64,000 nucleotides of DNA from Cymbomonas tetramitiformis (taxonomy: Eukaryota > Chlorophyta > Pyramimonadophyceae > Pyramimonadales > Pyramimonadaceae), in the NCBI GenBank assembly GCA_001247695.2, contig LGRX02035431.1:62001-126000 (forward strand). Reading direction: 5' to 3'. A program made the position numbers and the translations under genes. The notes below the pieces were generated by a model. The model did no database searches. It saw only the letters and a list, made by a program, of their open reading frames with translations, and had not been told where the DNA came from. This document shows positions 6,095 through 27,744 of this stretch, piece after piece. Position 1 is the stretch's first letter. Each line of letters starts with the position of its first letter.

Positions 6095-6532
6095 AAAATT
6101 CTGTTGGGTTTGAAGATTTTCTGTACCCAAGTAAGGTGGGGTTCCTAGGTGACAACACATCTTTTCAAAGAAAAACTCAAACGCAAATGTAAAACGTACC
6201 ACATGTCCTAATGTTTCACGGGGAACTTCGTCGTGAAGTTAGAATTCACGTCCGGTCAACCGTCGTTCCGGAAAACGCACCTCTGCAAAAACTGTGACCA
6301 AAGGCATGACCTACCCAAGGGAATACGCAACTTTCGGAAAAAATGTCCGATGAACGCAAATGAAAACGCAATTCGGGGTAGTTCTTCGCAAGGAAAGCGC
6401 CTGTTGCGTCACAATTGCCGGCAGGTTTCTCGTTTTCCCGCCAGCAAAAGGTCTGCGAATCTTGGCAGAAAATAAAAGAAGGCTTTCGCCTCCAAACAAA
6501 AGGGGTACGAGAAAGATAGCGCACCTTTAATG

Positions 6533-6605
6533 TGTGGCACCTCGGACTTGCACCGAGATCTCCAAACCAAGATGGTTTGGTGCTCTACCTTTGAGCTAAT
6601 GCCAC
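6533..6605 (-). tRNA. tRNA-like sequence, copy 2 (probable pseudo-tRNA)
   Basis: Second copy of the tRNA-like cloverleaf, exactly 511 bp from the first, with the same acceptor wobble pair and the same abnormal anticodon arm. Confidence 0.45.
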
Positions 6606-7043
6606 AAAATTCTGTTGGGTTTGAAGATTTTCTGTACCCAAGTAAGGTGGGGTTCCTAGGTGACAACACATCTTTTCAAAGAAAAACTCAAACGCAAATG
6701 TAAAACGTACCACATGTCCTAATTTTTCACGGGGAACTTCGTCGTGAAGTTAGAATTCACGTCCGGTCAACCGTCGTTCCGGAAAACGCACCTCTGCAAA
6801 AACTGTGACCAAAGGCATGACCTACCCAAGGGAATACGCAACTTTCGGAAAAAATGTCCGATGAACGCAAATGAAAACGCAATTCGGGGTAGTTCTTCGC
6901 AAGGAAAGCGCCTGTTGCGTCACAATTGCCGGCAGGTTTCTCGTTTTCCCGCCAGCAAAAGGTCTGCGAATCTTGGCAGAAAATAAAAGAAGGCTTTCGC
7001 CTCCAAACAAAAGGGGTACGAGAAAGATAGCGCACCTTTAATG

Positions 7044-7116
7044 TGTGGCACCTCGGACTTGCACCGAGATCTCCAAACCAAGATGGTTTGGTGCTCTACC
7101 TTTGAGCTAGTGCCAC
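7044..7116 (-). tRNA. tRNA-like sequence, copy 3 (probable pseudo-tRNA)
   Basis: Third copy. One base change turns the acceptor 5' strand into GTGGCAC, which pairs perfectly with GTGCCAC over all 7 bp, so this copy fits the cloverleaf best. The anticodon arm is still abnormal. Confidence 0.45.
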
Positions 7117-7618
7117 AAAATTCTGTTGGGTTTGAAGATTTTCTGTACCCAAGTAAGGTAGGGTTCCTAGGTGACAACACACCTCCTTTGCCTCTTCGAA
7201 GAAAGACCGCTGTCTCCCGTTTTCTCCATTGCAGCTTGCTGCTTTTTTTTAAAACTCTCTTGCGAGAGTCAACCGCTCGTTTTCAAATCGTAAAGAACTT
7301 CAAGTCAAACACGACTTGGTGTGGCGCAGGCAACAGGCGGGATATCTCGCCTTGCATATCATCATCGTGCGCAATCGATCGCAAGCGCCATCGACTCGTC
7401 GTGATGACGGCCATGGCCATGCATGCGATTTCGCTATCTTATTATCTTAGTTTATATTCATGCACTCATCACCTGCTTGCCATGGAATTTCTATCATTTA
7501 TACCGCGACTGTATGCCTTCCCCCATGTTCTCGCAATTTATACACGTCGATTAGCCTTTCTTTAAATTTATACAAGCGTTTAGGCTCTCGATCTCAGATT
7601 CTCGCCTGTCTCCGCGGC

Positions 7619-11290: not shown

Positions 11291-11359
11291 GATATAAGGA
11301 AATAAATAAATACCGAAAATGTGCGTAAAATGACGGTGAATATGCTGCGTGGTCAAAAC

Positions 11360-11578
11360 TGTCGCAAACGCGTGCATATGATGGTACGAACACTCTCGGA
11401 ATCGAGCAAACTTAACGCTCGCGGCTGGTCATAAGTTCGTCATTAATATTCACTGGTGCCGGTAACTGTTCGAGCAATTCTCACCACAACACAAGATCGT
11501 AGAGCTACAAAATTTTTAAAATTCTGTTATCCTGAGATCGAACGCTGAACTCTTACATGCAAGCCCAGATTTCCAACA
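11360..11578 (-). repeat. Repeat A (copy 1), LTR-like
   Basis: 219 bp with LTR-type ends: TGTCGCAAACG...TTTCCAACA on the plus strand, so TGTTGGAAA...TTTGCGACA on the coding strand of the gypsy element. A near copy lies at 12105-12321, and a diverged pair at 56638-59656 (split by an insertion) and 60191-60387. Repeat B lies between the two copies. Confidence 0.75.
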
Positions 11579-12104
11579 GAAAAAGTATGAAAACAGCAGT
11601 AAAATATATCCGTCAAAATTGATATTATAACCACAAAAACACGAATTATTGTGTACAAAAGCTGTGAGCAGAACTGTCTTAGCACTCTAGCACTGGCACG
11701 CGAACAGCCACCTAGTACTTGCGAAGCAAAACAATAATGAGTCCACTAGCCTGACCTCCGGTCAGAGTCTACTTATATCTCAATGCTCTGTCACATTTCC
11801 CAAAACTGTAACGGGTTCTAGCCCTTAAATCTTCATCTGGCCAATGGAAAGTCATTATTCCATGCCAGCTCTAACAATGTTACCGTTTACCGCATTCTGA
11901 CTGACACGTCAGCGGCAAAGGAGTCACTGCCATCTTCATCTTATCATTCCCTGGTCATTCGATAGTGACCATATCTTCTCTGACAAGTCTGCATCTCGCA
12001 GATGGTCATCTTCGCAAAGCCTGTCATGCTGTCACCACTGTCATGCGTGTCACTAGCTGAACAAACCCGGCGCGGTACCATGAGAAGCCGGCGTTTGTTA
12101 CAGC
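11579..12104 (-). repeat. Repeat B (left copy), LTR-type segment
   Basis: 524 bp, from GAAAAAGTATG to TTTGTTACA, plus a GC dinucleotide. The same 524 bp occur in the same orientation at 27145-27668 at the far end of the gypsy element, with about one mismatch by eye. This marks the pair as terminal or subterminal repeats of one recent insertion. A diverged copy lies at 59657-60188, again between two A repeats. Confidence 0.8.
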
Positions 12105-12321
12105 TGTCGCAAACGCGTGCATATGATGGTACGAACATTCTCGGAATCGAGCAAACTTAACACTCGCGGCTGGTCATAAGCGTCATTAATATTCACTGGT
12201 GCCGGTAACTGTTCGAGCAATTCTCAACACAGCACAAGATCGTAGAGCTACAAAATTTTTAAAATTCTGATATCCTGAGATCGAACGCTGAACTCTTACA
12301 TGCAAGCCCAGATTTCCAACA
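12105..12321 (-). repeat. Repeat A (copy 2), start of the 3' LTR of the gypsy element
   Basis: 217 bp. On the coding (minus) strand it begins TGTTGGAAATC directly after the purine tract AGATGGGGGA (12322-12331), the arrangement expected at the polypurine tract/3' LTR border of a retrotransposon. Confidence 0.7.
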
Positions 12322-12331
12322 TCCCCCATCT
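12322..12331 (-). other. Polypurine tract
   Basis: AGATGGGGGA on the minus strand lies 27 bases after the Pol stop codon and abuts the TG that opens repeat A. This is the usual plus-strand priming site of LTR retrotransposons. Confidence 0.65.
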
Positions 12332-12358
12332 GTAGCTGCTGCGTGCAGTAGCACAGAC

Positions 12359-15300
12359 TCAAATATGGGCTTGTTCAGCATACTGGGTCGTATCACCATC
12401 TGTCATGAACTTGCCCAAACTGAAAGTGAACATACCAATGCCTTCACCTTCTCCACCCTGTAACATCCTGGCTCTGACTAGCGGATTCTTGAACACCAAG
12501 ACCCACATACATCTGCGGCCAATGGGTCTATGTTCCAGATGCCCAATCACATGCAAGCGTCCCGTCTGACTCAATCGTCTGAAGTACGCAGCCCTGCTCT
12601 CGGTCATGTCTGTCAAGTAATAAGATGGAACGTGGACACACGCCACCACACGACTGGCCATTACTGCCAACGGAAACGCGATATCCAGCGCTGCAAACCA
12701 AGGTGAAGTCACCACTGCGTCACAGACGCCATACTTCTCCTTCCATATGCGATAGTTACCTGGCTGAAGTGCGTCATGCGCCTCAGACCAACCCAACTGA
12801 GAGTCCCAGTCATTATTCATAAATCTCAACTGCGGCCATTGCTCCACCATCACCTCACTGATGACCCCAGTGCCTGCCCATGGGTCCCACACGCCATCGA
12901 CGGACTTCCAGTCCACCTCTGTCGCCAAACGCCTCACCTCAGAGGGCACTGTGATGACCAGTTCAAGCCCCCACTGCAGTGCGCTAGCTTCTCTCACCTG
13001 AGCCTTAGTCGTGTGTCTCAATTCCCCTCGTCTTTCAACTTCTTCTTCAGCCAACGCAGGCACAAGGGGTGCATCCCTCAGCTGCCTTGCCATGGCCTTC
13101 TGTTCCCGATATTTCTTGCTCAGCACCGTGCGATGCCCCTCATTCCAGTGCCCTGGCATGAAGATCTGCACAGCCTCAGAGAGCTTGTCCTGTCTTCCCC
13201 AATCAATCTGATCTGGCATGCCCAAGAACATGTCCTTCTCTTTCAACAGCATCTCCCTTGATGAGATGGCGTGCCATGGCTGAAATTTGTCTCCCTTCAC
13301 CACGCGACGGGGACCCACGTCTGCTGGCAACAGGCGCATCTCCGCAGACAGCTTCTCATTCAATTGCTGCTCCTTCATGCCCAGTCTGTCCTCTAGGACA
13401 CCAGAGCTCTCGTCTTTCTGGGTCTGCACCTCAGCGTTGGCAGCTTGCATCCCCGTGCCTGAGCACCTGGGACATAGCCACTCGCCTTCTGGTACTCCAT
13501 CCAGTGCTGGGGTCAGACACCACAAGTGGTACCCCCTGTTGCATGCGTCGCACAACAACATCTCTGCTTCCCCATCAGTCTTCCTGCACACTTCACATGC
13601 TAGGTGCTTGCTGGGAACGGCTGCACTGCAGTCATACTGGTCCTTCACCTGTAGGTGACATGGCGCGATGCTCTGCACGGTGCTCTTCTCTCTTAACTTG
13701 GTGGCGTCCTCAAGCACCACCACACCATCTCGCTGTATCTTGACCAGCTTCAGAATGGCAGATTTGGTCGCGACTTCCATGCCGCTGCGAGGCTTCTGCC
13801 TGATGTAGACGAAATCGCCCACCTTAAACTGGTGTGGACTAGGCTCATAGCCCCCACCTCTTCTCCCTTCATAATGTAGTGTATCACGATGCTGTGCGAC
13901 CTCCAGGCTGCAACCAGCGTGTACCATCAGTCGCCTCACCACCTGTGCTCTCCGGTGGAGGTCCTTGACTCTGGCATCCTTCTCATCTTCGACCTCAGCA
14001 CCGAAATCTATGCTGGGTGCCTGTTTCAAATCAGGCGGCACTACTGCCTCTTGGGCAAACAACATGGTGAACGGCGCCACCCCCGTGGACTCCTGGCGTG
14101 CTGCATTATAGCTCAGCACTAGTGGCCAGAGCTGCTCATCCCACTCATAATCGAGACCCTTCTCCAAGGCAAGCTTCTTAAAGCAAAACTTCATAGTGCG
14201 TACCACTCGCTCGGTCAGCCCATTGCCTTCTGGTGAGTCTGGCGAGGTGACTCGTCGGTCGATCAGGCAGTCTCTGCACAGCTGCTTGAACTCGCCTTCA
14301 AACTCCTTACCTCCATCCACCAAGCACTCTGCTGGCGCACCAAACACAGCCAGGACATGACTGCGAAATGCCGCTGCGATGGTGCTCGCCTCCTTGTCGG
14401 GAATGGGCACGCAGACTATGAACCTGGTGTAGTGCTCGGTCATGATGAGCACTCGGTTGTTGCCAGACTTGGTCTCTCTCCTCGAAGGCCATGCCAAATC
14501 CAGCGACCAGCGATACATGAACGACACGATCTCGAGGGGGGATAAACATGCCTCCTCTCTCGCATAATGAGTTTTCACACGCTGACAGGTCTCACACTGC
14601 GTGACCACAGCCTCGACGTCTTTCTTCAAATCGGCCCACCAATGGCGCTGCCACAAAAGATGCTGCGTCCGTCTTATGCCCCAATGTCCAGTTCTGGAGT
14701 GGTATTCCTTAACCAACGCGAGACGGTCAGCAGGCTTAGGTATTCTCACCTCCTTGCCCGACAGAGTGACCATGTAGATCTCGTCCGTAGCCTCATCCCA
14801 TCGATGTCGTGCTGCTCGTCTCCTCACTCGACGAACTTCCTCTTCTGGCAACCTCACTCTACCATTGGACTTCAACCATCTGAGGCACCATGCATCATCG
14901 TGTACATCTCGATGCTTGTCACGGTCTACCTGCTGCTCGGCCACGCTGGCCATCAGGTCCTCGAATCTGGTGGTGCACGCCAACCTGGGGAGTCTCATCT
15001 CTGAATCTTTGGCAGGCGGACTCCAGGCAGGCACATCCACGCGCGCTGCTGGGGTTGCGCCCTCCTTCACGAAGTGGTTCTCATGCCTCTGGCGATACTG
15101 CGCCATGGTGTAGAGCTGCCACTCTTTCTTCTTCTTCTTCTTGGTTCCAGCCTTCTGTCGCTGGGCCCCAATTCCTTCTGCACCTTTCTGCCCTTGCGAG
15201 CACATTACCCGCAGCTTCTCCTCCCAGTCACGGTGGGTCATAGTCTTCGCCACCTGCTGAGTATATGCATTCGAATTCTCAACCCATTCCGCCAGCAAAG

Positions 15301-18300
15301 CTTGCCTCTGCTGAAGGTCCGACCTCTCGTGGTCTGCCCAGTTGTTGTCTACAGCGATGGGCTGTCCTGGGGAATTCTCTGCCTCTGGGGATTCCTCGCT
15401 GTGAGGGAGCCCCTTCCTGCTCGCTTCTGCGACCGCCATCAGCAGCTCCATTGCCCTGCGATCCATGGCCAGGCCCAGAATGCTTGCCAATTCTACGTCG
15501 TTCAGGCCATCGGCCATGCGTAGCTCACTTGCGCTGTAGCCCATGGCTCGCGCCTTTTCGTCGAGGTTCACTTCTCGAGATTCTTCCTCGGCGTCTTCAT
15601 CGTCCTGGTTGCGCACCACGGTGCCCATTCTCGCTCTTCTGAACGCTCTTGACCCTTGCGTCGCCATGATGGTGGGAAGTGCCCTCAATGGTTCTCCCAC
15701 CACGTTCACCACGCAGTGAGGCGCGCGGTCTGTCCTTATCACTGGCCTGGGATGCCAGCCCTTGCATATGACTGACGATACGATTCGTCCTTCTGGTCTC
15801 ACCACCTTGCTCATGACGGAGCGAAACTGGTGGCTCTGGAACAAGTTGCTCCAATACGCTCGCAATCGGTGTGCGTAAGCGCCTGCTTGTGCTGCATCAA
15901 AGGACACTGGTCGGCCAATGACGCTGGCAATGTACGGGAACACCTCGTCCCTGATCTTGGTTCCAGGTCTGTGTGACAACGGAGAAACGTTCTCCAGGAT
16001 ATAGCCTGGAGGCCTCTGCTGCTGCAGCTGCTGGAGTGTGGACAGAAGCCTGACCACTTCATAAAATAGTTTGCTGTGCCTGCCATCCAGGCCTGTGAGT
16101 GTTCCAGCAGGAGAGAGATCCTGGCATGGGAACCCACATACCATGACCCACTGGCGTCCTTGAAGAGCTCCTGCTCGTATAAAGTCGGCACTGGTGGTGT
16201 CGCGCAGATCTTGGGGTAGAGCCCCAAACTCTATTGCACGGGGCGAAATGAGGTCAGGATATCGTCTTAGCAACGCCGTGCACCTGGCCCTGGCAACTGT
16301 TCGACTGCTCGGGGATATGTCCTGATACAGGTAGCGATCCACCTTCATCCCACTGCGGAGCAACATCTCTAGCCCAGCACAGAGGCCTCCACATGGCTCG
16401 TAGCACACCACGCCTTCCTCCCGAGCTTGCGAGAAGAACCGCCTGCCCAGCACCCTGGTGTCCACCTTCTCAGGCTTCAAGATGCGCTCGCCTTCAAAGT
16501 ACTCATTGCTGTACACAGCAGGGCTTCCCTCGCCGTGCGTGCCTCGCGTAGGCCTGACCAGGCTCAGCGCCTTCCAAGCTGCTCTGGCTAGCCTTCCAGA
16601 GTCGGTCACCAGCTCAGGTAAGTCAGTGTCAAACATGTCCCCATGATTGCATTCTAATTCCTCGCGGTAGTGCAAGTCGAACAAACGATGCACTGGTCCC
16701 GTGCCCAGCTGCTCCATGGCAGCCATCCTGCAGTAGTTGGCAACCTGCACCTCTGGCGTGGCCTCTTCCCCTGGGAAAGCATCCCCAGCCAACATAAAGC
16801 ACAAGTGGTCACAGAAGTCCTTCGTGTGAACTTCCCCCACGCCTGCGTGTAACGCAGTCACCTTCTCCCTCTCATGCCTCGCTCCAGTCTCATCTGTCGT
16901 GGACGGCAGTGGGTAGCGAGACGGCACGTCAGCGTTGCTGTTCTTGGCACCTGGACGATACTTCACAGTGAAGTCGAACTCCTGCAAACTGATTGCCCAG
17001 CGTAGGTGTTGCCCTTGGAGATCGGCCTTCTCCATCAGGGTGGTGAGCGGTGAGTGGTCGGTCACCAAAGTGAAGTGAACTCCATGCAAGTACTGCCTCA
17101 GTGTGCGCACTGCCCATACCACTGCGAGCATCTCCCCCTTGAAGCTGGCGTACTGTCTCTCCGTTTTACTCAGGGATCGGCTGATTGCCATACAAATGTA
17201 CTCCTTCCCATCATCGTCCTTCTGGCCCAGCACTGCGCCAATGCCATAGGTGCTCCAATCGGTGTACAATATGAGGGGTCTGTCATAATCGATAGGCCTC
17301 AGGCACCTCCCAGAACAGAGAGCATCCTTCAGTTCTTGAAGTGCTCGATCTTGCTCCTTCCCCCAGGCTCCCTTGATGTCAGTGACCTCCTTTTTGAGCA
17401 GGTCATTGAGAGGGCGGGCCATCTCAGAGTAGTTTGGCCCCCCTGGCTCACCCACCAAGCCCTTGTAGTAGTTCATCATGCCCAAGATCGAGCGGAGCCC
17501 AGTCTTGTCCTGGGGGCTTGGAAGCTCCTGGATGGCCTTGCATTTAGCTTCTTGCGCGCCAATGGAGTTGTGACCAATGCGATAGCCCAGAAAGTCCACC
17601 GTGGCTGCACCAAAGGTACTCTTGCCTGCATGCAAACGGATGCCAGCGTCCCCCAAGGTGCGCAGTACGTCCTCAACGTCCTTCAAATGCTGCTCAGGCG
17701 TGGAATCCGTGTAGACCACTACGTCGTCGACGTATGCCACCGTGCAATGCTGCAAGTGACGTAACTCGTAGTCCATGATTCTTACGAACGCAGAAGTAGC
17801 TCCAGCTGCACCAAAAGGCATCGAGGTGTACTGGTACAGCTGATTCTTCCACCAAAACGCCGTCTTGCTCCTGTCCTCTTCCGTGGCCATGGGAATCTGG
17901 TGGAAGGCTTTGGTGGCATCCATCGTGGTCTTGAACTTGGCCTTCGCCACCTTCTGGTAGAGCTCCTCTGGTCGGTGTGGCAGCGTATTGTCTTTGAGGG
18001 AGTGCCGGTTGACACCCCTGAGGTCCACGCAGAACCTCGTCTGGGTCCACATGCCAGTCTCATGATCTTTCTTGCCAGCCACGACCACGTTGCTCGCATG
18101 CCTGCAATGCTTGGCTGCTGGCTCTATGAAGCCATACTCCAAAAGTTCCTTGCAATGAATATCGATGATTACCTGCTCGCCCGGACTGTACTTCCTGGGT
18201 CTCTGGTAGGCGGCCTTGGATTCGTCTACAAAAGGAATGGAGAACGTGTTGTGCTCCGCCTTGCCCTTGTAGCCTGTCAGATCGTGAGGACTGTTGGCAA

Positions 18301-19600
18301 AGGTGGTCTTGCACCTGCGAAGAACATTCCGCATTTCCTCCCAGTGCTCCTCCTTGAAGTCAGGATGTCCTCCAAACGTGGCATTGAGCTCAGTGTCGAG
18401 CCACGCTGCCTCGTCCTTGGTCACTGTCGTGTCACCTAGAGGTTGAAGCTCGTCCAGCACGGTGTACGGCAAGACCTCATCCTGCTTCGCGACGTTGGCC
18501 ACCCAGCCCGGCTCCCATTGCCTTGAGGATTGCTGAGCCTCCCAAGAAGTGCAGGGGGACGAACCCCAGGCGCTGCGTGTGGGTGACGTGACATCATACG
18601 TAAGCACACACTCGGTCAGCTTGCCAGCGACCCACAAGATTCCGCACAAAAGCAGAAAAAATCGCAAAATTCGATTGAAATGCACTGCGGCTACCGGCGA
18701 GTTCGAAGCGAAGAAGCACGCCATTACTCTCCACCCCCCGTGCGCCAAGCGAGTACTCCCACCAGCGGCGGTGAAGACCACGACCGCAAGGACAAGCGCC
18801 ATGTAGGCGGCTTGCGCGACACGGTGAAGGCGGAGATTGCGTCGAAGCTGCGTCCAGCGCGCCGCGAAGCGAGGCTTGTCCAACCTGGCCGGCAGAGCGG
18901 GCAGGCGTACGCGGCCCAACAAGAAGACTTGGGACCAACGCAGGGACGGAATAGTCCATCCACGGCCACGTCGAATGTGACCTGCGTCCAGCGGGTCGTG
19001 CACGATACAGGAGGCGTGGCACGCCACGTCCTCAGCGTAAATGCTGGTACAAACCCAAAGCCAGGCGAGGACCACGAGGAGGAGGGCGGCCGCACACTGC
19101 GACCAGTATGCCAAGGAAACGACCACCCCCCGAAGGGGCACCACCATCCAACCCTCCGCATGCACACGGTGCACGCCAGCATAGATGCCCGTGGCGCGCA
19201 CGATAAGCAGCCCAACGTACCAAACGCAGGCGAGAGCCCATAAGATCCAGATGTCGTAAGATGCCCGAAGGGGATAACGCCGAGCAGCCGACCACCATAC
19301 TGGCAGCTGGCTCAAAAACGAGGCCACGCAGAGTCTCCACCAAACTTGAAAAGGGCACCACGACAAGTGCCAAGCCATTGCCTCCCACATCGCCCACACG
19401 GCGACCACGGGAATGGGACCGCGTCCCAGCCACCACCAAACCACTGCACTGCCCGCAAACGAGATACACGCCCGCAGGACACCTGGCCTCAAGTGGACTG
19501 CCTGTGCAGGCAGCCCACGGCCACAGCGTTGGTTGCTCACCAGGGCCACCCGCCCGCTGTGCCCGGGGAGCCCTGATGAAAATGCGTCTGTCTCTGCGCC
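12359..19600 (-). CDS. Pol polyprotein: TM segments, RT, RNase H, C5-DNMT, integrase, PHD, second MTase
   Basis: The frame is open from 19600 to the stop at 12359; there is no ATG at its start, and it lies -1 to the gag frame. Residues are counted from 19549. About 1-330: tryptophan-rich with four or five hydrophobic segments. 430-690: RT with YVDD near 605. 755-880: RNase H (YTDWSTYGIGAVLG, TDHSP). 1040-1360: C5 cytosine methyltransferase with motif I EPCGGLCAGLEM, motif IV GFPCQDLSP near 1135 carrying the catalytic Cys, and motif VI ENV near 1185. 1610-1800: integrase with an HHCC zinc finger and D,D-35-E residues (SLDLAW, LVDGG, NGLTERV). 1983-2030: PHD finger (CEVC...CDAC...H..C...CPRC). 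2215-2370: Rossmann methyltransferase-like, with WDPWAGTGVI and VVTSPWF. No nonsense codons interrupt it, so it may be functional. Confidence 0.9.
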   Translation of the reverse strand, partial: GAETDAFSSGLPGHSGRVALVSNQRCGRGLPAQAVHLRPGVLRACISFAGSAVVWWWLGRGPIPVVAVWAMWEAMAWHLSWCPFQVWWRLCVASFLSQLPVWWSAARRYPLRASYDIWILWALACVWYVGLLIVRATGIYAGVHRVHAEGWMVVPLRGVVVSLAYWSQCAAALLLVVLAWLWVCTSIYAEDVACHASCIVHDPLDAGHIRRGRGWTIPSLRWSQVFLLGRVRLPALPARLDKPRFAARWTQLRRNLRLHRVAQAAYMALVLAVVVFTAAGGSTRLAHGGWRVMACFFASNSPVAAVHFNRILRFFLLLCGILWVAGKLTECVLTYDVTSPTRSAWGSSPCTSWEAQQSSRQWEPGWVANVAKQDEVLPYTVLDELQPLGDTTVTKDEAAWLDTELNATFGGHPDFKEEHWEEMRNVLRRCKTTFANSPHDLTGYKGKAEHNTFSIPFVDESKAAYQRPRKYSPGEQVIIDIHCKELLEYGFIEPAAKHCRHASNVVVAGKKDHETGMWTQTRFCVDLRGVNRHSLKDNTLPHRPEELYQKVAKAKFKTTMDATKAFHQIPMATEEDRSKTAFWWKNQLYQYTSMPFGAAGATSAFVRIMDYELRHLQHCTVAYVDDVVVYTDSTPEQHLKDVEDVLRTLGDAGIRLHAGKSTFGAATVDFLGYRIGHNSIGAQEAKCKAIQELPSPQDKTGLRSILGMMNYYKGLVGEPGGPNYSEMARPLNDLLKKEVTDIKGAWGKEQDRALQELKDALCSGRCLRPIDYDRPLILYTDWSTYGIGAVLGQKDDDGKEYICMAISRSLSKTERQYASFKGEMLAVVWAVRTLRQYLHGVHFTLVTDHSPLTTLMEKADLQGQHLRWAISLQEFDFTVKYRPGAKNSNADVPSRYPLPSTTDETGARHEREKVTALHAGVGEVHTKDFCDHLCFMLAGDAFPGEEATPEVQVANYCRMAAMEQLGTGPVHRLFDLHYREELECNHGDMFDTDLPELVTDSGRLARAAWKALSLVRPTRGTHGEGSPAVYSNEYFEGERILKPEKVDTRVLGRRFFSQAREEGVVCYEPCGGLCAGLEMLLRSGMKVDRYLYQDISPSSRTVARARCTALLRRYPDLISPRAIEFGALPQDLRDTTSADFIRAGALQGRQWVMVCGFPCQDLSPAGTLTGLDGRHSKLFYEVVRLLSTLQQLQQQRPPGYILENVSPLSHRPGTKIRDEVFPYIASVIGRPVSFDAAQAGAYAHRLRAYWSNLFQSHQFRSVMSKVVRPEGRIVSSVICKGWHPRPVIRTDRAPHCVVNVVGEPLRALPTIMATQGSRAFRRARMGTVVRNQDDEDAEEESREVNLDEKARAMGYSASELRMADGLNDVELASILGLAMDRRAMELLMAVAEASRKGLPHSEESPEAENSPGQPIAVDNNWADHERSDLQQRQALLAEWVENSNAYTQQVAKTMTHRDWEEKLRVMCSQGQKGAEGIGAQRQKAGTKKKKKKEWQLYTMAQYRQRHENHFVKEGATPAARVDVPAWSPPAKDSEMRLPRLACTTRFEDLMASVAEQQVDRDKHRDVHDDAWCLRWLKSNGRVRLPEEEVRRVRRRAARHRWDEATDEIYMVTLSGKEVRIPKPADRLALVKEYHSRTGHWGIRRTQHLLWQRHWWADLKKDVEAVVTQCETCQRVKTHYAREEACLSPLEIVSFMYRWSLDLAWPSRRETKSGNNRVLIMTEHYTRFIVCVPIPDKEASTIAAAFRSHVLAVFGAPAECLVDGGKEFEGEFKQLCRDCLIDRRVTSPDSPEGNGLTERVVRTMKFCFKKLALEKGLDYEWDEQLWPLVLSYNAARQESTGVAPFTMLFAQEAVVPPDLKQAPSIDFGAEVEDEKDARVKDLHRRAQVVRRLMVHAGCSLEVAQHRDTLHYEGRRGGGYEPSPHQFKVGDFVYIRQKPRSGMEVATKSAILKLVKIQRDGVVVLEDATKLREKSTVQSIAPCHLQVKDQYDCSAAVPSKHLACEVCRKTDGEAEMLLCDACNRGYHLWCLTPALDGVPEGEWLCPRCSGTGMQAANAEVQTQKDESSGVLEDRLGMKEQQLNEKLSAEMRLLPADVGPRRVVKGDKFQPWHAISSREMLLKEKDMFLGMPDQIDWGRQDKLSEAVQIFMPGHWNEGHRTVLSKKYREQKAMARQLRDAPLVPALAEEEVERRGELRHTTKAQVREASALQWGLELVITVPSEVRRLATEVDWKSVDGVWDPWAGTGVISEVMVEQWPQLRFMNNDWDSQLGWSEAHDALQPGNYRIWKEKYGVCDAVVTSPWFAALDIAFPLAVMASRVVACVHVPSYYLTDMTESRAAYFRRLSQTGRLHVIGHLEHRPIGRRCMWVLVFKNPLVRARMLQGGEGEGIGMFTFSLGKFMTDGDTTQYAEQAHI

Positions 19601-20448
19601 TCACGTTGTTCGTCTGTATGGCGCTCGAACGCCTCCGTCACTTCGCTGCATATCGAAACAGCTGGAGAAGGAGGACACCGCGAGGTAAGACCGGCCGGCA
19701 TCCTAGACGCCCTTGGCGCATGGACGACATGGGTAGCAGTCCCATGGCGACCGACAGAAGGGGCAGATGAGCGCGCAGCACCGCCCGCGCCCGGCTGATG
19801 CTCATACGTTCGGCCGGAAGGCTGGCCCTGACGACGTGCAGGGGGGTCGCGAACCTCGTGCACATTCCTCCGCCAGGCCGTATCCACGTGCTCGGATCTC
19901 TCGGCCACGAGAGCCTGATGGGCGGGTGGCGGCGGCGGCGGCGGCGGCGGGAGACGAAGCGCCTCCAAGGCCCCCAGGGCTGGCAGCAATCACGGCGCGG
20001 CCGATTCCCTGGTTCCCCACTGCAAGCCTGTGAACTTCCGGTCGTCCTGTTCGAAATACTCGTTCGTGAACTCAGCGTGCCAAGTAAGACATCGCGCGTC
20101 CTCCAAGAAGATGTAGTACACGGGTGTGGCATTTGGGTGCGCCATGCAGCGCAGCACGTGTGCCGCCCCAATCTCCACGTAGGTACACAGCGAGTACGCA
20201 ATGTTCCTCGCATGACCCCCCGGCAACTTGTGCCCTGAGTCACGGTGCGACAGATCAGCGTAGGCTGAAATCATGGCCTCCAGGAGGTTGGAAGACGTTG
20301 TCTGTCCCCCAAGAGGGAGACGCCAGCCACGGTTCCCGCACGCGATGGTCTTGTTATGCTTCTTTTCAACTTTGCTGGTGATACCCGGATGTCTCCGCAG
20401 CCTGAGACCCCGCTCCTGGTTGCACACGCCAAGCTGGTACATGACTCG
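19537..20448 (-). CDS. Gag-frame extension between Gag-protease and Pol
   Basis: This stretch continues in the same frame as Gag after its UAG (20449-20451). It runs 152 codons to an in-frame UGA (19990-19992), then about 150 more to 19537. The first part has ordinary protein composition (LLEAMISAYADL, AEFTNEYFEQDD). The second contains a polyproline run (about 19925-19955) and is R/A/P-rich. It therefore looks like part of one polyprotein interrupted by two stops, either read through or acquired as nonsense mutations. Bases around the stops do not match the strongest known read-through contexts. No domain was recognised. Confidence 0.5.
19561..19567 (-). promoter_or_regulatory. Candidate -1 frameshift heptamer
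   Basis: On the minus strand CCCGGGC lies in phase C CCG GGC with the gag frame, inside the 64-base overlap (19537-19600) between the end of the gag frame and the opening of the pol frame. Pol is in the -1 frame. It fits the X XXY YYZ rule formally, but this exact heptamer is not a well-known eukaryotic site and the region is GC-rich. Confidence 0.35.
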
Positions 20449-23400
20449 CTAGCCTCTGCACCGGTCATAGAACGTCACGCCAAACCGTATCATGAAGACA
20501 GTGAGGTTGCGGCGGTCCTTCAAGGCGCTCACCTCCTCCACGGACAGAAATCTGCATACTGAACTGGCGGATGTGGTGGCCATTCGTGCGGCATCCCAAT
20601 CCGACCCCGCTGGAGATGGAGGCGCCCTCGCAGGGGACCGAGACAGGCGACTCGCCCGCGGTGGACTCGGAGGCGTAGGAGGCGGGCCCCCCGAAGAAGG
20701 TGATCGGGAATCACGTGCGACACGGATCGAGTTTGCCCATGAGCCAGCGTTGGTCAAGGCGGGCGATGCAGGGGGCGACCTCCCGCGAGGAGGGCTGTTG
20801 TCAGGATCTGACGGACAAGCCGCGGTGGCGCAAACGAATCGAGGTGACACCAAGTCCTCGGGCCCATGGCTGCTGGATGACGGCGACGGCGTACGGCAGT
20901 GCGCGATGTGCGACAAGTGCGGTGGCGAGTGGCCGCTGGACCTGGCTCGAGATGGCCCCGCGACAGCTTGAGATGGTCGTGCGATGTGCGACAAGCGCGG
21001 TGGCGAGCGGCTGCTGGACCTGGCTCGAGATGGCCCTGCGACAGCCCGGGATGGGCCTGCGCCTGCGGCAGGAGCAGGTGGCTGCGCAGGGGCTCGCTTC
21101 GTGAGCCTCATGTTGACCATGTTGTTGGGCGGTGGCGGCCTACGCTCTGCATCTGCCTCGAGTGCATCGCGGCCCTGCTGCCTGGTGTTGACCGCCTTGA
21201 GCATTTTCCTCATTTCCCCCAGGCGCACGTACTCCTGGGCAGCGGCATTCTCGGAGAACACCCTGCCAGCCCCCCCAAGACCATCCCCCACCGGGTAGTA
21301 CTTGGTGCTCGAACCCAGGGAGACGAGCTCCAGAGGTGGCGCCTCGCTGCCATGTCGATTGTACTGTCGGAGGATGCCAACCGAGAGGGACTCCATGTCC
21401 ACCGGGCAAAGGTACCTGAGCAGCTGGTACGTCCAGACACCAGTGCTCTCGTACCAGTGAGGGAGTTGAAGCTCGTCCAGCAACTCCTCACTGTTGTACA
21501 CGAGTGCATGATCCAGCGTGCAGCGCATCAGCTCGAGGTACTGCGTGGCTGCGCTCGGTTGTACACAGAGGACACGCTCCTTCAGATCCCACATGAGGGT
21601 GCCAGCGACCTCACCACTGGGGTATTTGAACAACTCCTGGAGCGTGTGCTGCAGTCGCTGGATTGGGTTGAGGCTGTCGAGCGCTCTGCCTTGCTCCCTG
21701 GGCTTGACGACGTCCTGCTTGTTGGCAGAGGATGGCACGTGTGTCATATAGCTCCCCTTGAGCACCCAGCGGTCCTTCTCCTCATCGTGATCCAGCTTCT
21801 GGTCCACATACAGCCAGTTAGGGGGCATCAGCTGGTCCACCGTCACCCACTGCTGCTCGAGACAACGGACGAACTCCACGCAGACATGTTCTTGGGAAGG
21901 TTTGGCTGGCATGTCCTCGGGAAGGTCTTGAAGGATGCGGCAAAGACGTGCAACATGGTGCCGGTCCAGGTACAGTCTCTGATCCGCCCAGTTGTGGTCA
22001 AGACGGACATCCAGAGACGGACGACCCCCAGCCACCTGGCCCTCAGTGACCCACCTCGCGCGTCCACCCACCCAGGGGTTCGGTTCTGCGTAGAGTTGTG
22101 CGAGCATGCGCTCCGACACTGCCCGTGCGGCGGGCGCCAGTAACGCCAGGTCGCTCCTTCGACCTCCTTCAAGAGAACATGTGTGACTGCGACACCTCTC
22201 CTCGATCTCCGCGCGTGTGGCGACTCGGGGTCTAGGGAGCTCAGCAGGTGGCCCTGACGAAGACGCTGGTGACCCCACTGGTGAATCGTAGCCGTCATAG
22301 ATGTGCTCAGACTGAATCCCAGAGGCAGCAAACCTCTCCTCCCTCGTGCTCAGAGGTGGGTGCCCTAGCCATTCGCACTCCGTCCCCTGCCCAAAGATCT
22401 CCGACTGCAAACACACCACTGGGTCCACCCTCCTGGGCTGGTGAGGACGCCTGGGTGTTGTCATGTCAACCAACGGAAGAACCACCTGAGCGTCCATGCC
22501 CAAAATCGTCGGCGCATGCGACACGGCCACGCAACTTCCAAGCTTGATGTCGATCATCAGGGAATTCTTCAGTGGCCCGGTGCCTATCAGCAGGTCCCAA
22601 GAGTTCTCGGGCTCGAAGGTCACGAAGGCGTATAGCCGGTGAAGCGTCATGTGCGGCGTGCCCGCAGCCAGTATGACGTCCACGTAGCAGTAATGCGTGA
22701 ACTTCGTGGGGCTGTTGTCACACCTGGTGACCTTGGCGCCGGTGCTGGCCTCATAAACCGTGAGGCCCAGCCGCCTTACGACAGCGATGGAGATGATGTT
22801 GCAGTTGGCGCCGGTGTCCATGAGGATCGCCCGGTATAGCATAAGCTCACCACCAGATGACACCAACGCCAGTCCCTCATACAGGGTGGCATTCCGCAAC
22901 TTGCAGATGGGCTGCACCTGAGTCATCAGTAACACCTGCTCGTCGGTCAGGTGCTGCTTCATCTTTGCCCTCAGCGCGTCGTAGGCGAGGGTCTTGATGG
23001 TGCCAGCTCGTACATGTCCATGGTCGCTGAAGTCAACCACCCCCAGGTCGTCCACGCAGGCAGCGGCTGCACATCGAGCGGCGGCGCTGTCGACCACACC
23101 GTTGGGCATCTCGTCCAATGGCACCTCCTTGATCGCGCGGTGTTCTGCACCATCTGCCTCTCCTCTTACCCCTTGCGTCACTGTGGCGTGCGTGTCCTCC
23201 AGCTCATGCTCGTTGACCTCGGTGGGTTGCTTGATTGCATCATTCGGAACGTTGCCCATGAGCTCCTCCAGCGCCAAGAGGTTCTCGATGTCCTTCGGGA
23301 GGTCGATGGCGTGCTGGGATATCAGGATGGCCGCAATCTGCGAGCAAGTGCGCACGGAGCTGCGAAGATTGGATGCCAGCAGGTGGAATTTCCTGCTGAG

Positions 23401-25374
23401 GACGTTGGGAGGAACGGCTCTGGGCACCTGAGCGGCCCTGTCGAACTCCTCCGGCGTCTTGACCTGGAAGCTCTGCATCTTCTGAGTGCTGCCCAAGGCG
23501 ACAGCGGCACTGGCCTGAAGACTCGGTGCGTGACCGATGCCGACATCATGACTGTCTTCCAGCCCATCATCAGCAGGGCAGTCCTTCTCATCCTCCTCGT
23601 ATTCAGCCTGTTGGTTGAAGTGGGAGTCGTACTCAGTCTCCGCATCGCTGACCTCTGACCGGGCCTGTGCATCGGCGCCCTTGTCACCCTTTGGAGGTGC
23701 CCCTGTCTGGAGACCTGTCAATTCTGCAGCGAGCTTCTCCTTAACCTCGGCACTGGCCGCCACTTGCTGCTGCTGCTGCTGCTGCGGCTGCTTCTGCTTG
23801 GCCTCTGGGAGCTTAAGCCACTCCTTGGTGGTGATCCCCATCTTGTGGTTCTCGAAGCGGTGCGCGATGTTGTAAGCACGCATCTGTGCATTCTTGACCT
23901 CATCCGGCCACTTGGAGTTCTGCCTGTCCTTGTGGAAGTTTGGCGGCACCCGGGCCTCACGACACCCCGTGTAGCAGCGCTCTGGAGAGTGGGGCAGGCG
24001 CGTGAAGCACCAATCACACTGGAACTTCTTTGAAGCATCAGGTGGTGGCACCTTGCTGTAGGTAGGCTTCTGACGCTCAGCATTGTTCACTTCCCTCGAA
24101 GGCTTCTTGGCGTCGTCGCCACCATGCTGTGCTTGCTCCTTCTTCTTGGGGTCCCTGCGTCTGTCCCCAGTCTTGGAGGCAGAACCCGAGCGCCTCATGG
24201 CTGACACTAGTGCAGCCAGGTCAAGCCCCAGCTGCCTGGCCTCGTAGCAGGAGTACACGCAGTTGAGTCTGCGAACCAGCTCCTGCTGCAGTGTGAGAGC
24301 CCAAGCCTCCGCATCGTTCTTCAGCTTGTCCTGCACCTCCACGATTACCTCCAGGTCCTCCCATGTGACCTTGTTGGGGGCAGGATGGCTGACACGTAGC
24401 TGCTCGGACACGCGATCTCGGTATTCTTTGATGCGCAGGCCCTTGATGCACTCCTCGATGTCCTGCCTGACGACGGGGTCCTCCACCCTCTTGCCGGTGT
24501 TGAGCGCTGCCTCCCTGCGACGACAGCTTTTCACGTAAGCGAGGCCGTCCTGCTCGGTGGTCTGCGGCTTGGCTATCAACAGATCCTCCTTCTCTTTGGT
24601 GCCCTTCATCAGGAATTTAGCTTCGAGCTCTGCAATGAAAGCCCTCAAGGCCCAAAAGTAGTGAGAATCTTCAGTGCCATCTGGCCCCGTGAGACCCTTA
24701 GTGGAGGTTCCCTCGCCTGCCCACTCATCAGACTCTTCGCCATCAGCATCACCTTCCTCGAACACCTTACAGACTGCCCAGGTTGATCCTGGCGCCAGCT
24801 CATGGAAAGGAGGCTGTGCGCAACGCACTGATCCCTGGAAAGCGTCTCTCATGGTGAGATCCTTCAGGACATGACAAGCGTGTGAGGCCATGACGCCATC
24901 CTTCAGGTATGCAGCGCACCACCAGTCGTAAGCGACTGAGGTTGAATGATTGTCCCCTGCTAGAAACGAGGGCAGGCTATCCCACAACGATCTGAGGTCT
25001 GGCTTGGAGTCAGCGAAAGCCTTCTTCTGCTGCTGACTGAGCGCGTGGAAAGACGCTGACTTCATGTGCCTACGCTTCTTGGCCTCAAAAGCCCGCTGTA
25101 CTTTCGCTACCATGTCAACGAAACGCCTGATGAAGAGCGCTCTATCCTCATTCTTGCCACCAGTGTACTGGAGCTTGACATCTTCCTTGTCAAGTGCGTG
25201 ACTATCCCTGTCATAGTAATCCATCTCGTCTACGTCGTCAAGCGCAAAGAGGAACTGATTTGCAGGCGCTGAGGCTGCTACTGCTGCTGCAAGTGCTGTC
25301 GCTGCGAGCGCTGTTGCTGCTGGTGATGCCGGTGCGGAGGGAGTGGTTTCTGAGCCCGACCCCTCTGCGCTCAT
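20449..25374 (-). CDS. Gag-protease polyprotein of the gypsy element
   Basis: 1641 codons from ATG at 25374. The N-terminus is Ala-rich, followed by an alpha-helical region (about 50-420) of the kind found in retrotransposon Gag. A cysteine cluster FQCDWC...CYTGC near 480-500 replaces the usual CCHC knuckle, and a glutamine run lies near 560. The aspartic protease domain starts at ILMDTGANCNII (Asp near 853) and continues to WDLLIGTGPL. The C-terminal third is a long linker ending in a proline/serine-rich part with repeats of AGPSRA and RSPPRLSHIA (about 1440-1620). Protease fused to Gag rather than to Pol is an accepted Ty3/gypsy variation. The frame is intact until UAG at 20449-20451. Confidence 0.85.
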   Translation of the reverse strand: MSAEGSGSETTPSAPASPAATALAATALAAAVAASAPANQFLFALDDVDEMDYYDRDSHALDKEDVKLQYTGGKNEDRALFIRRFVDMVAKVQRAFEAKKRRHMKSASFHALSQQQKKAFADSKPDLRSLWDSLPSFLAGDNHSTSVAYDWWCAAYLKDGVMASHACHVLKDLTMRDAFQGSVRCAQPPFHELAPGSTWAVCKVFEEGDADGEESDEWAGEGTSTKGLTGPDGTEDSHYFWALRAFIAELEAKFLMKGTKEKEDLLIAKPQTTEQDGLAYVKSCRRREAALNTGKRVEDPVVRQDIEECIKGLRIKEYRDRVSEQLRVSHPAPNKVTWEDLEVIVEVQDKLKNDAEAWALTLQQELVRRLNCVYSCYEARQLGLDLAALVSAMRRSGSASKTGDRRRDPKKKEQAQHGGDDAKKPSREVNNAERQKPTYSKVPPPDASKKFQCDWCFTRLPHSPERCYTGCREARVPPNFHKDRQNSKWPDEVKNAQMRAYNIAHRFENHKMGITTKEWLKLPEAKQKQPQQQQQQQVAASAEVKEKLAAELTGLQTGAPPKGDKGADAQARSEVSDAETEYDSHFNQQAEYEEDEKDCPADDGLEDSHDVGIGHAPSLQASAAVALGSTQKMQSFQVKTPEEFDRAAQVPRAVPPNVLSRKFHLLASNLRSSVRTCSQIAAILISQHAIDLPKDIENLLALEELMGNVPNDAIKQPTEVNEHELEDTHATVTQGVRGEADGAEHRAIKEVPLDEMPNGVVDSAAARCAAAACVDDLGVVDFSDHGHVRAGTIKTLAYDALRAKMKQHLTDEQVLLMTQVQPICKLRNATLYEGLALVSSGGELMLYRAILMDTGANCNIISIAVVRRLGLTVYEASTGAKVTRCDNSPTKFTHYCYVDVILAAGTPHMTLHRLYAFVTFEPENSWDLLIGTGPLKNSLMIDIKLGSCVAVSHAPTILGMDAQVVLPLVDMTTPRRPHQPRRVDPVVCLQSEIFGQGTECEWLGHPPLSTREERFAASGIQSEHIYDGYDSPVGSPASSSGPPAELPRPRVATRAEIEERCRSHTCSLEGGRRSDLALLAPAARAVSERMLAQLYAEPNPWVGGRARWVTEGQVAGGRPSLDVRLDHNWADQRLYLDRHHVARLCRILQDLPEDMPAKPSQEHVCVEFVRCLEQQWVTVDQLMPPNWLYVDQKLDHDEEKDRWVLKGSYMTHVPSSANKQDVVKPREQGRALDSLNPIQRLQHTLQELFKYPSGEVAGTLMWDLKERVLCVQPSAATQYLELMRCTLDHALVYNSEELLDELQLPHWYESTGVWTYQLLRYLCPVDMESLSVGILRQYNRHGSEAPPLELVSLGSSTKYYPVGDGLGGAGRVFSENAAAQEYVRLGEMRKMLKAVNTRQQGRDALEADAERRPPPPNNMVNMRLTKRAPAQPPAPAAGAGPSRAVAGPSRARSSSRSPPRLSHIARPSQAVAGPSRARSSGHSPPHLSHIAHCRTPSPSSSSHGPEDLVSPRFVCATAACPSDPDNSPPRGRSPPASPALTNAGSWANSIRVARDSRSPSSGGPPPTPPSPPRASRLSRSPARAPPSPAGSDWDAARMATTSASSVCRFLSVEEVSALKDRRNLTVFMIRFGVTFYDRCRG

Positions 25375-25588
25375 ATATCCCGTGTCAAGGTCCTGACTGA
25401 CCCGCTCTCGCGCCAGTCGTCGTGCCTCACGTTCTCTGGACTGGGCAGAGGCAGCGCTTGGCTCTGCCTCACCCTCCGTGGTAAAGTACTGTGTTAATGC
25501 TCAGCTAATGGGACCAAGGAAGAGTCCCCTCTCTCAGCGCAAAGCTCGTTCACCAGTAGACTGGAGGCTTGATTCAGACTGGCTTAGG

Positions 25589-27030
25589 CCAGTGCACTGA
25601 GTGCCCCTGGATTCACCTCGCTGAACAAGCGGAAGAACGAAACGCGTGCGGCCAGCGAACGCCTAAAGGTCCAGCACTATGCTTCAGCGCTCTGAATCCG
25701 CAGCAGATGCAGAATATTCGTGCGAGGAGGACTTAAAGCTGGGCCAGTGTGCTGAGCACTTCTGGATTAGCTGGGCCAGAGTTCATCAGGAGCACAGTGA
25801 ACATGAGGGCAACTCCACGGCACCAAGAATAGCACTGATACGCAGCGGTGTGAGCTAGGCCAGTGTGCTGAGCACCCCTGGATTCACAACACCACTGCTA
25901 ATCAAGGGCACCGTAGCTGGCATGGAAGCTCACTCCCCAGTCCAGTAAGCAAGTGTAAGGTCGCTGTGCAGAGTTGGGAGCTAAGCCAGTGTGCTGAGCA
26001 CCCCTGGATTCGCAACACCACTGCTAATTCAGAAGGTGGCCGGTGATATGAGGGCCTCACCAGCTGACCAATACCGTAGAAAAGATAGAAGAATTCTCCC
26101 ACACATTATGATAAAGCACTAGAAGGTCACTCCAGTAGTAAGCAGCACTCCAGGCTGGTCAGGTAATTAACTCTGAATCCACCAGATAACCGTATCACAC
26201 CAGTGAATATCGCTTAAAAAAGACCACTCACTTGTCGCCTTCAGGGCTGATGTCGCTGTCAGTCCTCTGGCAAGCTCTTCCCTACTTCGGGCTTAGGCCA
26301 GTACACCAGGGGTGTCCCTGGATTAACCGTCAGACAGGGTGGAGCTGCCCAAGAAACCGTAAGTTGCAGTTCCAGACATAGAGCAGTGACTCACTGCTGA
26401 TCCGCTTCTTTGCTGGTAAGTCCAAGCAGATGCCGCCGCCAATTAGCTCCCAGGCCAAGCACACCTGCCTTTCAGTTAGGCCAGTACACCAGGGGTGTCC
26501 CTGGATTCACTTCAGACAAGGTGGCCAGCTGGAGAACCCACTGGAAGGTAGTTCATCAAGGTGCACATTAACTGCTGATCCACTCTTAGCCGGTAGTCCA
26601 GGCAGATGCCGCTGCTGATTAGCTTCCAGGTGACACACACTTGCTTTTCAGTTAAGCCAGTGCACCAGGGGTGCCCCTGGATTCACTTCAAACAAGGTGG
26701 CCAGCTGAAGGAACCACTGAGAGGTGCTCATCCAGGTGTACATTCACTGCTGATTGACTCTGTCGCCGCCGCCGCCCAAGCTCATGCCGTGCTGATTAGC
26801 TCAAAAACTGAAGAACACCTGTCAGCAGTTAGGCCAGTGCACCAGGGGTGCCCCTGGATTCACTGCAGAACAAGGTGCTGAGCATATCACCGGGTAGAAG
26901 GAGGCCGCTCATGACTAGTGAATTCAAAGCTGATCCGTTGCCGCCGTCGCTGGTAGCTCTTTCAGTGCAAGTACCACCAAGTTCAGGGAAGAAGAAGGGT
27001 CCGCCAGTGCACTGTGGGTGCCCCTGGAGT
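25589..27030 (-). repeat. Nine spaced hairpin motifs in the retrotransposon leader
   Basis: A motif of about 30 bases (plus strand GCCAGTGCACCAGGGG then TGCCCCTGGATTCAC) recurs near 25589, 25743, 25857, 25985, 26294, 26480, 26654, 26831 and 27003. Its core CCAGGGG-TG-CCCCTGG is a perfect hairpin in the later copies and is partly compensated in the earlier ones (GTGCTGAGCAC). Between 26400 and 26900 whole units of about 175 bp are repeated. The interval 25375-27144 has no gene and is the 5' leader of the gypsy transcript. A role in packaging, dimerisation or translation is possible but only inferred. Confidence 0.75.
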
Positions 27031-27144
27031 CGCCTGACTTCCGAATCCGCTCTTGCAAACTGCTGCTGACTTCTCGCCAAAGGGCCTTTACTTCTGGATT
27101 AACACTGAAATAAAAAGCCGCTCCGCGCAGGACATTATTGTTTT

Positions 27145-27668
27145 GAAAAAGTATGAAAACAGCAGTAAAATATATCCGTCAAAATTGATATTATAACCAC
27201 AAAAACACGAATTATTGTGTACAAAAGCTGTGAGCAGAACTGTCTTAGCACTCTAGCACTGGCACGCGAACAGCCACCTAGTACTTGCGAAGCAAAACAA
27301 TAATGAGTCCACTAGCCTGACCTCCGGTCAGAGTCTACTTATATCTCAATGCTCTGTCACATTTCCCAAAACTGTAACGGGTTCTAGCCCTTAAATCTTC
27401 ATCTGGCCAATGGAAAGTCATTATTCCATGCCAGCTCTAACAATGTTACCGTTTACCGCATTCTGACTGACACGTCAGCGGCAAAGGAGTCACTGCCATC
27501 TTCATCTTATCATTCCCTGGTCATTCGATAGTGACCATATCTTCTCTGACAAGTCTGCATCTCGCAGATGGTCATCTTCGCAAAGCCTGTCATGCTGTCA
27601 CCACTGTCATGCGTGTCACCAGCTGAACAAACCCGGCGCGGTACCATGAGAAGCCGGCGTTTGTTACA
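27145..27668 (-). repeat. Repeat B (right copy), 5' end of the gypsy element
   Basis: 524 bp, nearly identical to 11579-12102, in the same orientation. It begins and ends exactly where the left copy meets its A repeats, but here the flanks are unrelated (TTGTTTT before, AAAACAA after). I see no canonical TGG-type primer-binding site directly inside it. Confidence 0.75.
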
Positions 27669-27744
27669 AAACAAATCATTAGTGTGTGATTTACTTATCA
27701 TTTACTTACATCTTCTTACATCTTCTTACTTTCCCATTTTTCGT

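Follow-up and report, generated by a model that had tools for sequence, protein, structure and literature searches.

Among the closest described systems, KnitGypsy-Dnmt3 of Klebsormidium nitens (PMC5890265) likewise contains a DNMT3-type domain in a Gypsy Pol, and the figure legend of that report states that its repeats are structured as in a DIRS element, like those of the Cymbomonas tetramitiformis element described here. A Ka/Ks ratio below 0.2 was reported for its DNMT. Unlike in the Cymbomonas element, the term PHD is absent from the main text on KnitGypsy-Dnmt3, which is compared here by description, and the sections on that element contain no reference to a second methylase, to a target duplication, or to a route of integration. 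Captured DNMTs are also present in SymbioDIRS-Dnmt3 and SymbioLINE-Dnmt (PMC5890265), but these have DIRS and LINE backbones instead. Elements of the DIRS/PAT/Ngaro group (PMC4157794) have split direct repeats in common with the Cymbomonas element and some carry a methyltransferase (MT) domain; however, the available text describes them as having a tyrosine recombinase, no integrase, and no target duplication, whereas the Cymbomonas element has a DDE integrase and target duplications. Some algal transposons, such as Sola1-1_Ec32 of Ectocarpus (PMC12477816), carry an N4C/N6A-type methylase and thus have an amino-methylase-type domain, as does the Cymbomonas element in its C-terminal methyltransferase domain (CT) described below, but they are DNA transposons with a ParB-methylase protein and, in the available description, no DNMT. 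Chromoviruses also have a chromatin reader C-terminal to the integrase; in the Cymbomonas element, this reader is a PHD finger rather than a chromodomain, and a methylase domain follows it.

For C. tetramitiformis itself, high-copy scaffolds with homology to cytosine methyltransferase, RNase H, or chromodomain were reported, and the scaffold with a cytosine methylase was among those of highest coverage (Burns 2015; PMC5741210). These scaffolds are probably pieces of such elements; the passages on them describe neither an element, a second methylase, nor repeats. The text of a 2023 long-read paper on Cymbomonas has no mention of methyltransferase or methylation. In the available parts of two surveys, DNMT3 was not identified in any MMETSP green alga (PMC9998398, 2023), and DNMT3 was found in Copia and DIRS elements with no mention of Cymbomonas or Gypsy (PMC12344493, 2025). 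A DNMT-bearing Gypsy element with DIRS-like repeats is thus already known from Klebsormidium, whereas the PHD finger, the second methylase, and the integration signature were not found described. The combination of PHD, second methylase, and target duplications with split repeats was not found in the literature searched, which concerned split repeats in Gypsy, PHD in Gypsy, DNMT-bearing or Cymbomonas elements, circle integration, and N4-methylcytosine, and included few subscription papers.

Organization of the Element

The window, i.e., the whole 64,000-nucleotide stretch of C. tetramitiformis DNA analyzed (contig C25243 in the searched 852-Mb assembly), contains a 16.3-kb retroelement on the minus strand (Table 1). 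Its Pol has, in one frame and in the order assigned by Pfam, reverse transcriptase (RT), RNase H, C5 cytosine methylase, H2C2/rve integrase, and PHD finger. Together with the profiles, this bears out the preliminary description of one intact frame that also includes a second methyltransferase domain. The catalytic residues of the integrase have the spacing D-60-D-34-E, as in a DDE integrase. The frame of Pol residues 1–345 is open in all seven sequences compared (dN/dS 0.22–0.47), and this extension, with its four hydrophobic windows, is possibly a membrane segment. The Gag-like ORF is located upstream of the Pol frame and has a sub-threshold aspartyl-protease match (Pfam, E = 0.043) at the MDTGA stretch. 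Two 78-bp direct repeats are present within this frame (window positions 20903–21058).

Table 1. Coordinates of the features of the Cymbomonas retroelement in the window.
Feature	Position	Strand	Basis
Whole element, TG...CA ends, coding order B-gag-pol-A-B-A	11360..27668	-	Repeat comparison; ends and 4-bp duplication checked
Terminal repeat A (A_3 or A1; outer 3' end, coding sense)	11360..11578	-	Repeat comparison
Internal repeat B (B_int or B1), 99.8% identical to 5' B	11579..12102	-	Repeat comparison
Palindromic junction CGTTTGCGACA-GC-TGTAACAAACG, two element ends abutted with 2-bp spacer	12092..12115	-	
Internal repeat A (A_int or A2)	12105..12321	-	Repeat comparison
Polypurine tract CAGATGGGGGA abutting A_int	12322..12332	-	
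Pol ORF, 2396 aa	12359..19549	-	Stop-to-stop frame 12359-19600, 2413 codons
Second SAM-type methyltransferase domain (CT), residues 2190-2370	12440..12982	-	Profile, predicted fold
PHD finger, residues 1985-2029	13463..13597	-	Pfam
Integrase region, H2C2 and rve core, D1684-D1745-E1780	13670..14752	-	Pfam
DNMT3-type C5 cytosine methyltransferase, residues 1040-1370	15440..16432	-	Pfam, profile, predicted fold
RNase H domain	16940..17365	-	Pfam
Reverse transcriptase, YVDD at residue 606	17450..18262	-	Pfam
N-terminal extension of Pol, residues 1-345, four hydrophobic windows	18515..19549	-	
Gag-like ORF, 1641 aa, with MDTGA	20449..25374	-	ORF list, Pfam
Primer-site candidate directly after 5' B, complementary to 27294-27305 in B	27133..27144	-	
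5' terminal repeat B (B5 or B2)	27145..27668	-	Repeat comparison
Self-primer candidate CATTATTGTTTT, TATAAG at 27338-27343 about 38 nt upstream	27294..27305	-	

The RT-RNaseH-integrase order in Pol and the DDE integrase are those of Ty3/gypsy elements, as is the short target duplication (4 bp in four of six copies, with no match in two), but the ends lack identical LTRs, with B alone at the 5' end and A-B-A at the 3' end. The split direct repeats are those of the DIRS/PAT/Ngaro group; however, no tyrosine recombinase was found by Pfam in the Pol and Gag-like ORFs, which have H2C2 and rve domains instead. A PHD finger is present after the integrase, without the chromodomain of chromoviruses. 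The DNMT3-type domain in a Gypsy Pol and the DIRS-like repeats are features of the KnitGypsy-Dnmt3 kind. The element breaks the described rule by which split direct repeats go with a tyrosine recombinase and without a target duplication.

The joint explanation that we consider on balance probable is an autonomous Ty3/gypsy-type element of a DNMT/PHD clade, with self-primed reverse transcription, integration from a circle, methylation of its own DNA, and targeting by the PHD finger. The parts of this explanation that were observed are the architecture, fold assignments, purifying selection, regenerated split repeats, TG...CA ends, and target duplications, with the DNA-level work covering one subfamily of near-identical copies.

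The Methyltransferase Domains and the PHD Finger

For the cytosine methylase, a profile of 10 domain sequences has human DNMT3A as its top solved relative (E = 2.6e-16), with DRM2 (4.5e-6) and M.HhaI (6.5e-6) ranked lower. The alignment with DNMT3A spans the PC motif, the ENV motif, the DNMT3-type DA..AHR.R..W.NL stretch, and the C-terminal region. An AlphaFold2 model of the domain (pLDDT 84, pTM 0.87) was used in a structure search, and all 50 listed PDB matches belong to the DNMT3 family; given these matches and the best profile match to DNMT3A, the domain is DNMT3-like. In the methylase motif numbering used for this domain, motifs IV (PC), VI (ENV), VIII, and X accompany the fold in the DNMT3 manner. 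The C5 cytosine methyltransferase that had been proposed between RNase H and integrase was thus supported by Pfam, profile, and predicted fold, including its catalytic PC and ENV motifs. Among relatives of the element, EC replaces PC in motif IV of P0019, P0108–P0131, and others, with the Cys kept and often with ENT in motif VI. In IMG/VR, the DNMT profile has 300 relatives; the 80 that were kept are all partial matches with 24–54% identity.

Gamma-class amino-methyltransferases have motif I before motif IV and a catalytic (D/N/S)PP(Y/F/W). The predicted fold of CT resembles gamma-class adenine methylases (METTL5 and M.TaqI), with a Rossmann methylase fold and motif I ahead of motif IV. However, motif IV of CT is TSPWF, with SPPF in some relatives, and the catalytic (D/N/S)PP(Y/F/W) is absent from the window family, which has SPWF. 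CT is therefore described as folding like a gamma-class amino-methylase and not as an active member of the class. Foldseek alone on the CT model ranked O-methyltransferases and MnmM first. The best match of the CT profile to PDB sequences was a ribosomal protein (E = 0.1), and no relatives were found in IMG/VR. Of the N6/N4 amino-methylase style that had been attributed to this SAM-type domain, the methylase fold and its gamma-like character stand, but motif IV is not of the SPPF form. The check by profile and structure searches for a methylase fold at both places in Pol found one in both DNMT and CT.

The PHD finger that had been noted after the integrase was recovered by Pfam and occupies the position where chromoviruses carry a chromodomain. 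In one relative, P0157, the listed domains include a chromodomain (PF00385) as well as a PHD finger. The nearest solved relatives by sequence include the CHD4, WSTF, Lid/KDM5, KMT2C-type, ATXR5, and BAZ2A fingers. PHD readers of unmodified H3 have an acidic loop and no aromatic residue before the first Cys, and the ADD domain of DNMT3 likewise reads the unmodified H3 tail. Of 133 PHD relatives, 128 were parsed; neither of the two residues preceding the first Cys is aromatic in 116 of these, and the loop contains one or more acidic residues in 119. These residue counts, read with the sequence rules for such readers, point to the element PHD as a candidate reader of the unmodified H3 tail.

Selection Among Genomic Copies

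For comparisons within the genome, 20 copies were taken by their likeness to the last 2 kb of the window Pol, and by this choice they represent young relatives. The dN/dS ratios are based on Nei-Gojobori counts among equal-length copies, with the window included. The lowest value among the six domains was found in CT (0.039, n = 17), followed by integrase (0.058, n = 18), RT (0.065, n = 8), RNase H (0.107, n = 10), DNMT (0.185, n = 13), and PHD (0.302, n = 21, few sites). Copies in which the domain is missing, partial, or indel-bearing were excluded (of the 20, 13 for RT, 11 for RNase H, eight for DNMT, three for integrase, none for PHD, and four for CT), whereas stop-bearing copies were retained (two for RNase H and two for integrase). 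The PC motif is intact in 13 of 13 complete copies and both CT motifs are intact in 17 of 17, so a lack of these motifs in all genomic copies, which the preliminary description had named as evidence against its reading, was not seen. As far as substitution patterns can tell, the ratios for DNMT and CT say that both methylase domains are used by the element and are not passive cargo; the case for the PHD finger is weaker.

Distribution Among Relatives

The set of relatives includes at least 183 database proteins (P0004–P0186), with one source list limited to the best 120 of 131. The window Pol and these 183 proteins were scanned with six domain profiles, which were partly built from the same proteins. 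DNMT is present in 160 of the 184 proteins, CT is at least weakly present in 63, and all six domains occur in order in 53 when weak CT matches are included; these counts are not natural frequencies, because the matches were drawn by the same domains and one list holds the best 120 of 131. The named hosts among the DNMT carriers are Cymbomonas and Haematococcus lacustris (P0140 and P0141).

A FastTree phylogeny of RT, RNase H, and integrase was inferred for the 109 proteins in which all three are well covered (736 columns). All carriers of DNMT, PHD, or CT form one clade together with P0043 (support 0.999 as printed; 0.725 without P0043), which has a PHD ahead of the integrase and no DNMT. CT is found on several deep branches and is absent or degenerate in one large subclade. 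The change from PC to EC in DNMT also occurs on several branches; among the 109 tree members, 36 have EC for PC, nine more were unread by the pattern, and eight have a CT match below 60 bits. In P0185 and P0186, no DNMT was detected, and the PHD and TSPWF are kept. Loss of one methylase with retention of the other occurs in both combinations, and double cases are also present. Such relatives with EC, with lost or degenerate CT, or with no detected DNMT indicate that neither activity is required throughout the clade. By sequence comparison, this is a large clade in which Pol contains a PHD finger and, flanked by RNase H and integrase, a DNMT3-type methylase; part of the clade also has CT. This distribution suggests that captured cytosine methylases are a stable trait in a large clade of retrotransposons, whose named hosts here are green algae only, and that they are accompanied by a chromatin reader and by a second methylase under strong selection. 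The PC/EC and SPWF/SPPF/lost motifs form a natural series of contrasts in which the benefit of DNA methylation to a transposon can be studied.

Terminal Repeats and Target Duplications

In coding sense, the order B-ORFs-A-B-A corresponds to that of the split direct repeats in DIRS-type elements, an arrangement that the preliminary description had not noted, and the outer ends of the element, TGTAACAAACG and CGTTTGCGACA, are imperfect inverted repeats. A-B-A is intact in 15 of the 20 fetched copies, with the exceptions being one interrupted B, three copies without B, and one truncated copy. It is also spanned at each of the 41 best places listed for the repeat block; as scoring was confined to the top candidates among 2732 from a first look, this figure gives no frequency. 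All six element 5' ends found start directly at B, each in a different flank. A free 5' B is present at the expected place in three of 15 contigs, with a fourth match (C8678) being a tandem junction, and in two of 11 further stretches (nine searched by BLAST and two by exact strings only). An A-GC-B junction is present beyond the end of the element in C8678 and C17607, which is the arrangement that head-to-tail copies would have.

Exact 4-bp duplications flank four of the six copies: GTTT in the window (AAAC at 11356–11359 and 27669–27672), TATA in C981, AACA in C25055, and AGTT in C6448. Comparison of the flanks at both ends found no matching duplication at C25072 or C595. C25072 is probably a composite, as its two B copies differ by 1.9%. 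C595 and C6448 have a common 3' flank, and C595 is probably a related or mosaic locus.

A_int and A_3 of one copy diverge by 0.9%, compared with 3.7% for those of different copies (n = 18); the partner from the same copy is nearest or tied in 12 of the 18, and there is no fixed difference between the A_int and A_3 classes. For B5 and its own B_int, the divergence is 0.19% in the three pairs compared with matching duplications. Because divergence is lower within than between copies and the classes have no fixed difference, a single template appears to serve for rebuilding both repeats in each cycle, as it does for LTRs. A tandem arrangement of LTR elements with a deletion was rejected because 17 of 18 copies have an identical B|A_3 joint, from which the window lacks a single base.

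Reverse Transcription and the Route of Integration

The polypurine tract directly adjoins A_int in 18 of 18 copies. At the other end, the 12 nt that immediately follow B5, AAAACAATAATG, form the complement of B positions 364–375, which lie behind the TATAAG box; a 12-nt complement anywhere was reached in three of 2000 Markov shuffles. The primer-complement stretch is kept in 15 of 17 fetched internal B copies, and the primer site is intact in two of three fetched 5' ends. The distance from TATA to the primer complement is longer than usual. Tf1-type Ty3/gypsy elements are self-primed, with a primer site by the 5' repeat that is complementary to the 5' region of the RNA; the arrangement of the primer site is alike in the Cymbomonas element, in which the RNA 5' region is predicted. 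A tRNA primer site was rejected, as no TGG is present in the 40 nt after B5.

The polypurine tract beside A_int and the primer site beside B5 define A-GC-B as the LTR of ordinary reverse transcription, and the integrated ends fall inside this LTR at CA-GC-TG. Self-primed reverse transcription would produce a cDNA with an A-GC-B repeat at both ends, the cDNA ends would be joined into a two-repeat (two-LTR) circle, and integrase would cut the palindrome CA-GC-TG inside one repeat and insert there, giving B-ORFs-A-B-A. The positions of these signals suggest that joining into a two-LTR circle and integrase cleavage at the palindrome are the simplest path from the LTR to the integrated ends, and the constancy of the B|A joint is taken as support for the end joining. 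Integration from two-LTR circles is a route that was once proposed for retroviruses and then dropped. Cleavage of palindromic or two-LTR-circle DNA by HIV and foamy-virus integrases was reported (PMC1905944; PMC1180852). Circle entry, if true, would combine known mechanisms in a new way, and the occurrence of split repeats with a DDE integrase and duplications makes circle integration directly testable in a natural DDE system. A broader proposal, that the clade integrates from a two-repeat circle through a palindromic site in its own LTR while a chromatin-reading Pol writes 5mC and an amino-methyl mark on the circle or landing site, is offered as a tentative possibility.

Two other origins of the repeats may be considered. 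The A-coding-B-A-B order is the same as in DIRS, PAT, and Ngaro elements, and the split repeats might be produced by a DIRS-like path in which the internal repeat, not a two-LTR circle, templates circle closing. This path is rather unlikely given the DDE integrase, the TG...CA ends, and the 4-bp target duplications; the polypurine tract directly upstream of A_int and the primer site directly downstream of B5 also correspond to an A-GC-B LTR of retroviral-type reverse transcription. It is very improbable that this is an ordinary LTR element in which the extra A is an accident of one lineage or of the assembly. The five fetched copies without an intact A-B-A would fit such an accident, but A-B-A at all of the listed best places and the homogenization of A_int and A_3 within copies, which is unlike an inherited accident, argue against it. 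For an accident confined to one copy, these observations and the 15 intact copies led to its rejection.

Possible Roles of the Methylases and the PHD Finger

The preliminary description had proposed that the element could write two marks on its own DNA and that the PHD finger steers integration, both of which are putative roles. Under the joint explanation favored here, DNMT, perhaps together with the second methylase, would modify the cDNA or newly inserted copy of the element itself, and the PHD finger would guide the complex to nucleosomes whose H3 tail is unmodified. New copies may then land in, or at once become, quiet chromatin and escape recognition as foreign DNA. The place of the domains in Pol suggests that the methylases may act on cDNA or fresh insertions. 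For other elements, self-recognition, protection, or control of insertion-site chromatin was proposed (De Mendoza 2018; PMC5890265). Among 16 copies, singleton C>T changes occur at 31 of 298 CpG sites and at 82 of 1449 other C sites (odds ratio 1.9, p = 0.004), and shared C>T variants occur at 13 of 298 and 26 of 1449 sites, respectively (p = 0.015). No difference between CHG and CHH was found in this test. This small signal is weakly indicative of some CpG methylation of the copies and does not say whose enzyme is responsible.

Two alternatives concern the methylase domains themselves, and both are considered unlikely to a similar degree. The domains might act on host chromatin or RNA, thereby silencing defense genes or aiding the packaging of element RNA, but they reside inside Pol beside an integrase, whose substrates are cDNA and target DNA, and the PHD finger points to chromatin. 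Alternatively, one or both domains may be catalytically dead and serve as nucleic-acid-binding scaffolds in the particle. The SPWF of the window family, the replacement of PC by EC on the tree, and the low-scoring CT matches are all consistent with such a scaffold, whereas the invariance of the PC and CT motifs in complete copies of the window family and the particularly low dN/dS of CT argue against it.

Other Features of the Window

At positions 88–3537 of the plus strand, a 1149-aa ORF contains a PCIF1-like domain (Pfam, E = 9e-16) and RNase H. PCIF1 represents the cap m6Am methyltransferase family; in alignment with human PCIF1, the domain has NPEY where PCIF1 has NPPF. The ORF is perhaps a second case in this window of a mobile element that has captured a methyltransferase. 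In addition, a tRNA match (Rfam; 6022–6094, minus strand) is located inside a repeat array (6000–7321) of 511-bp spacing.
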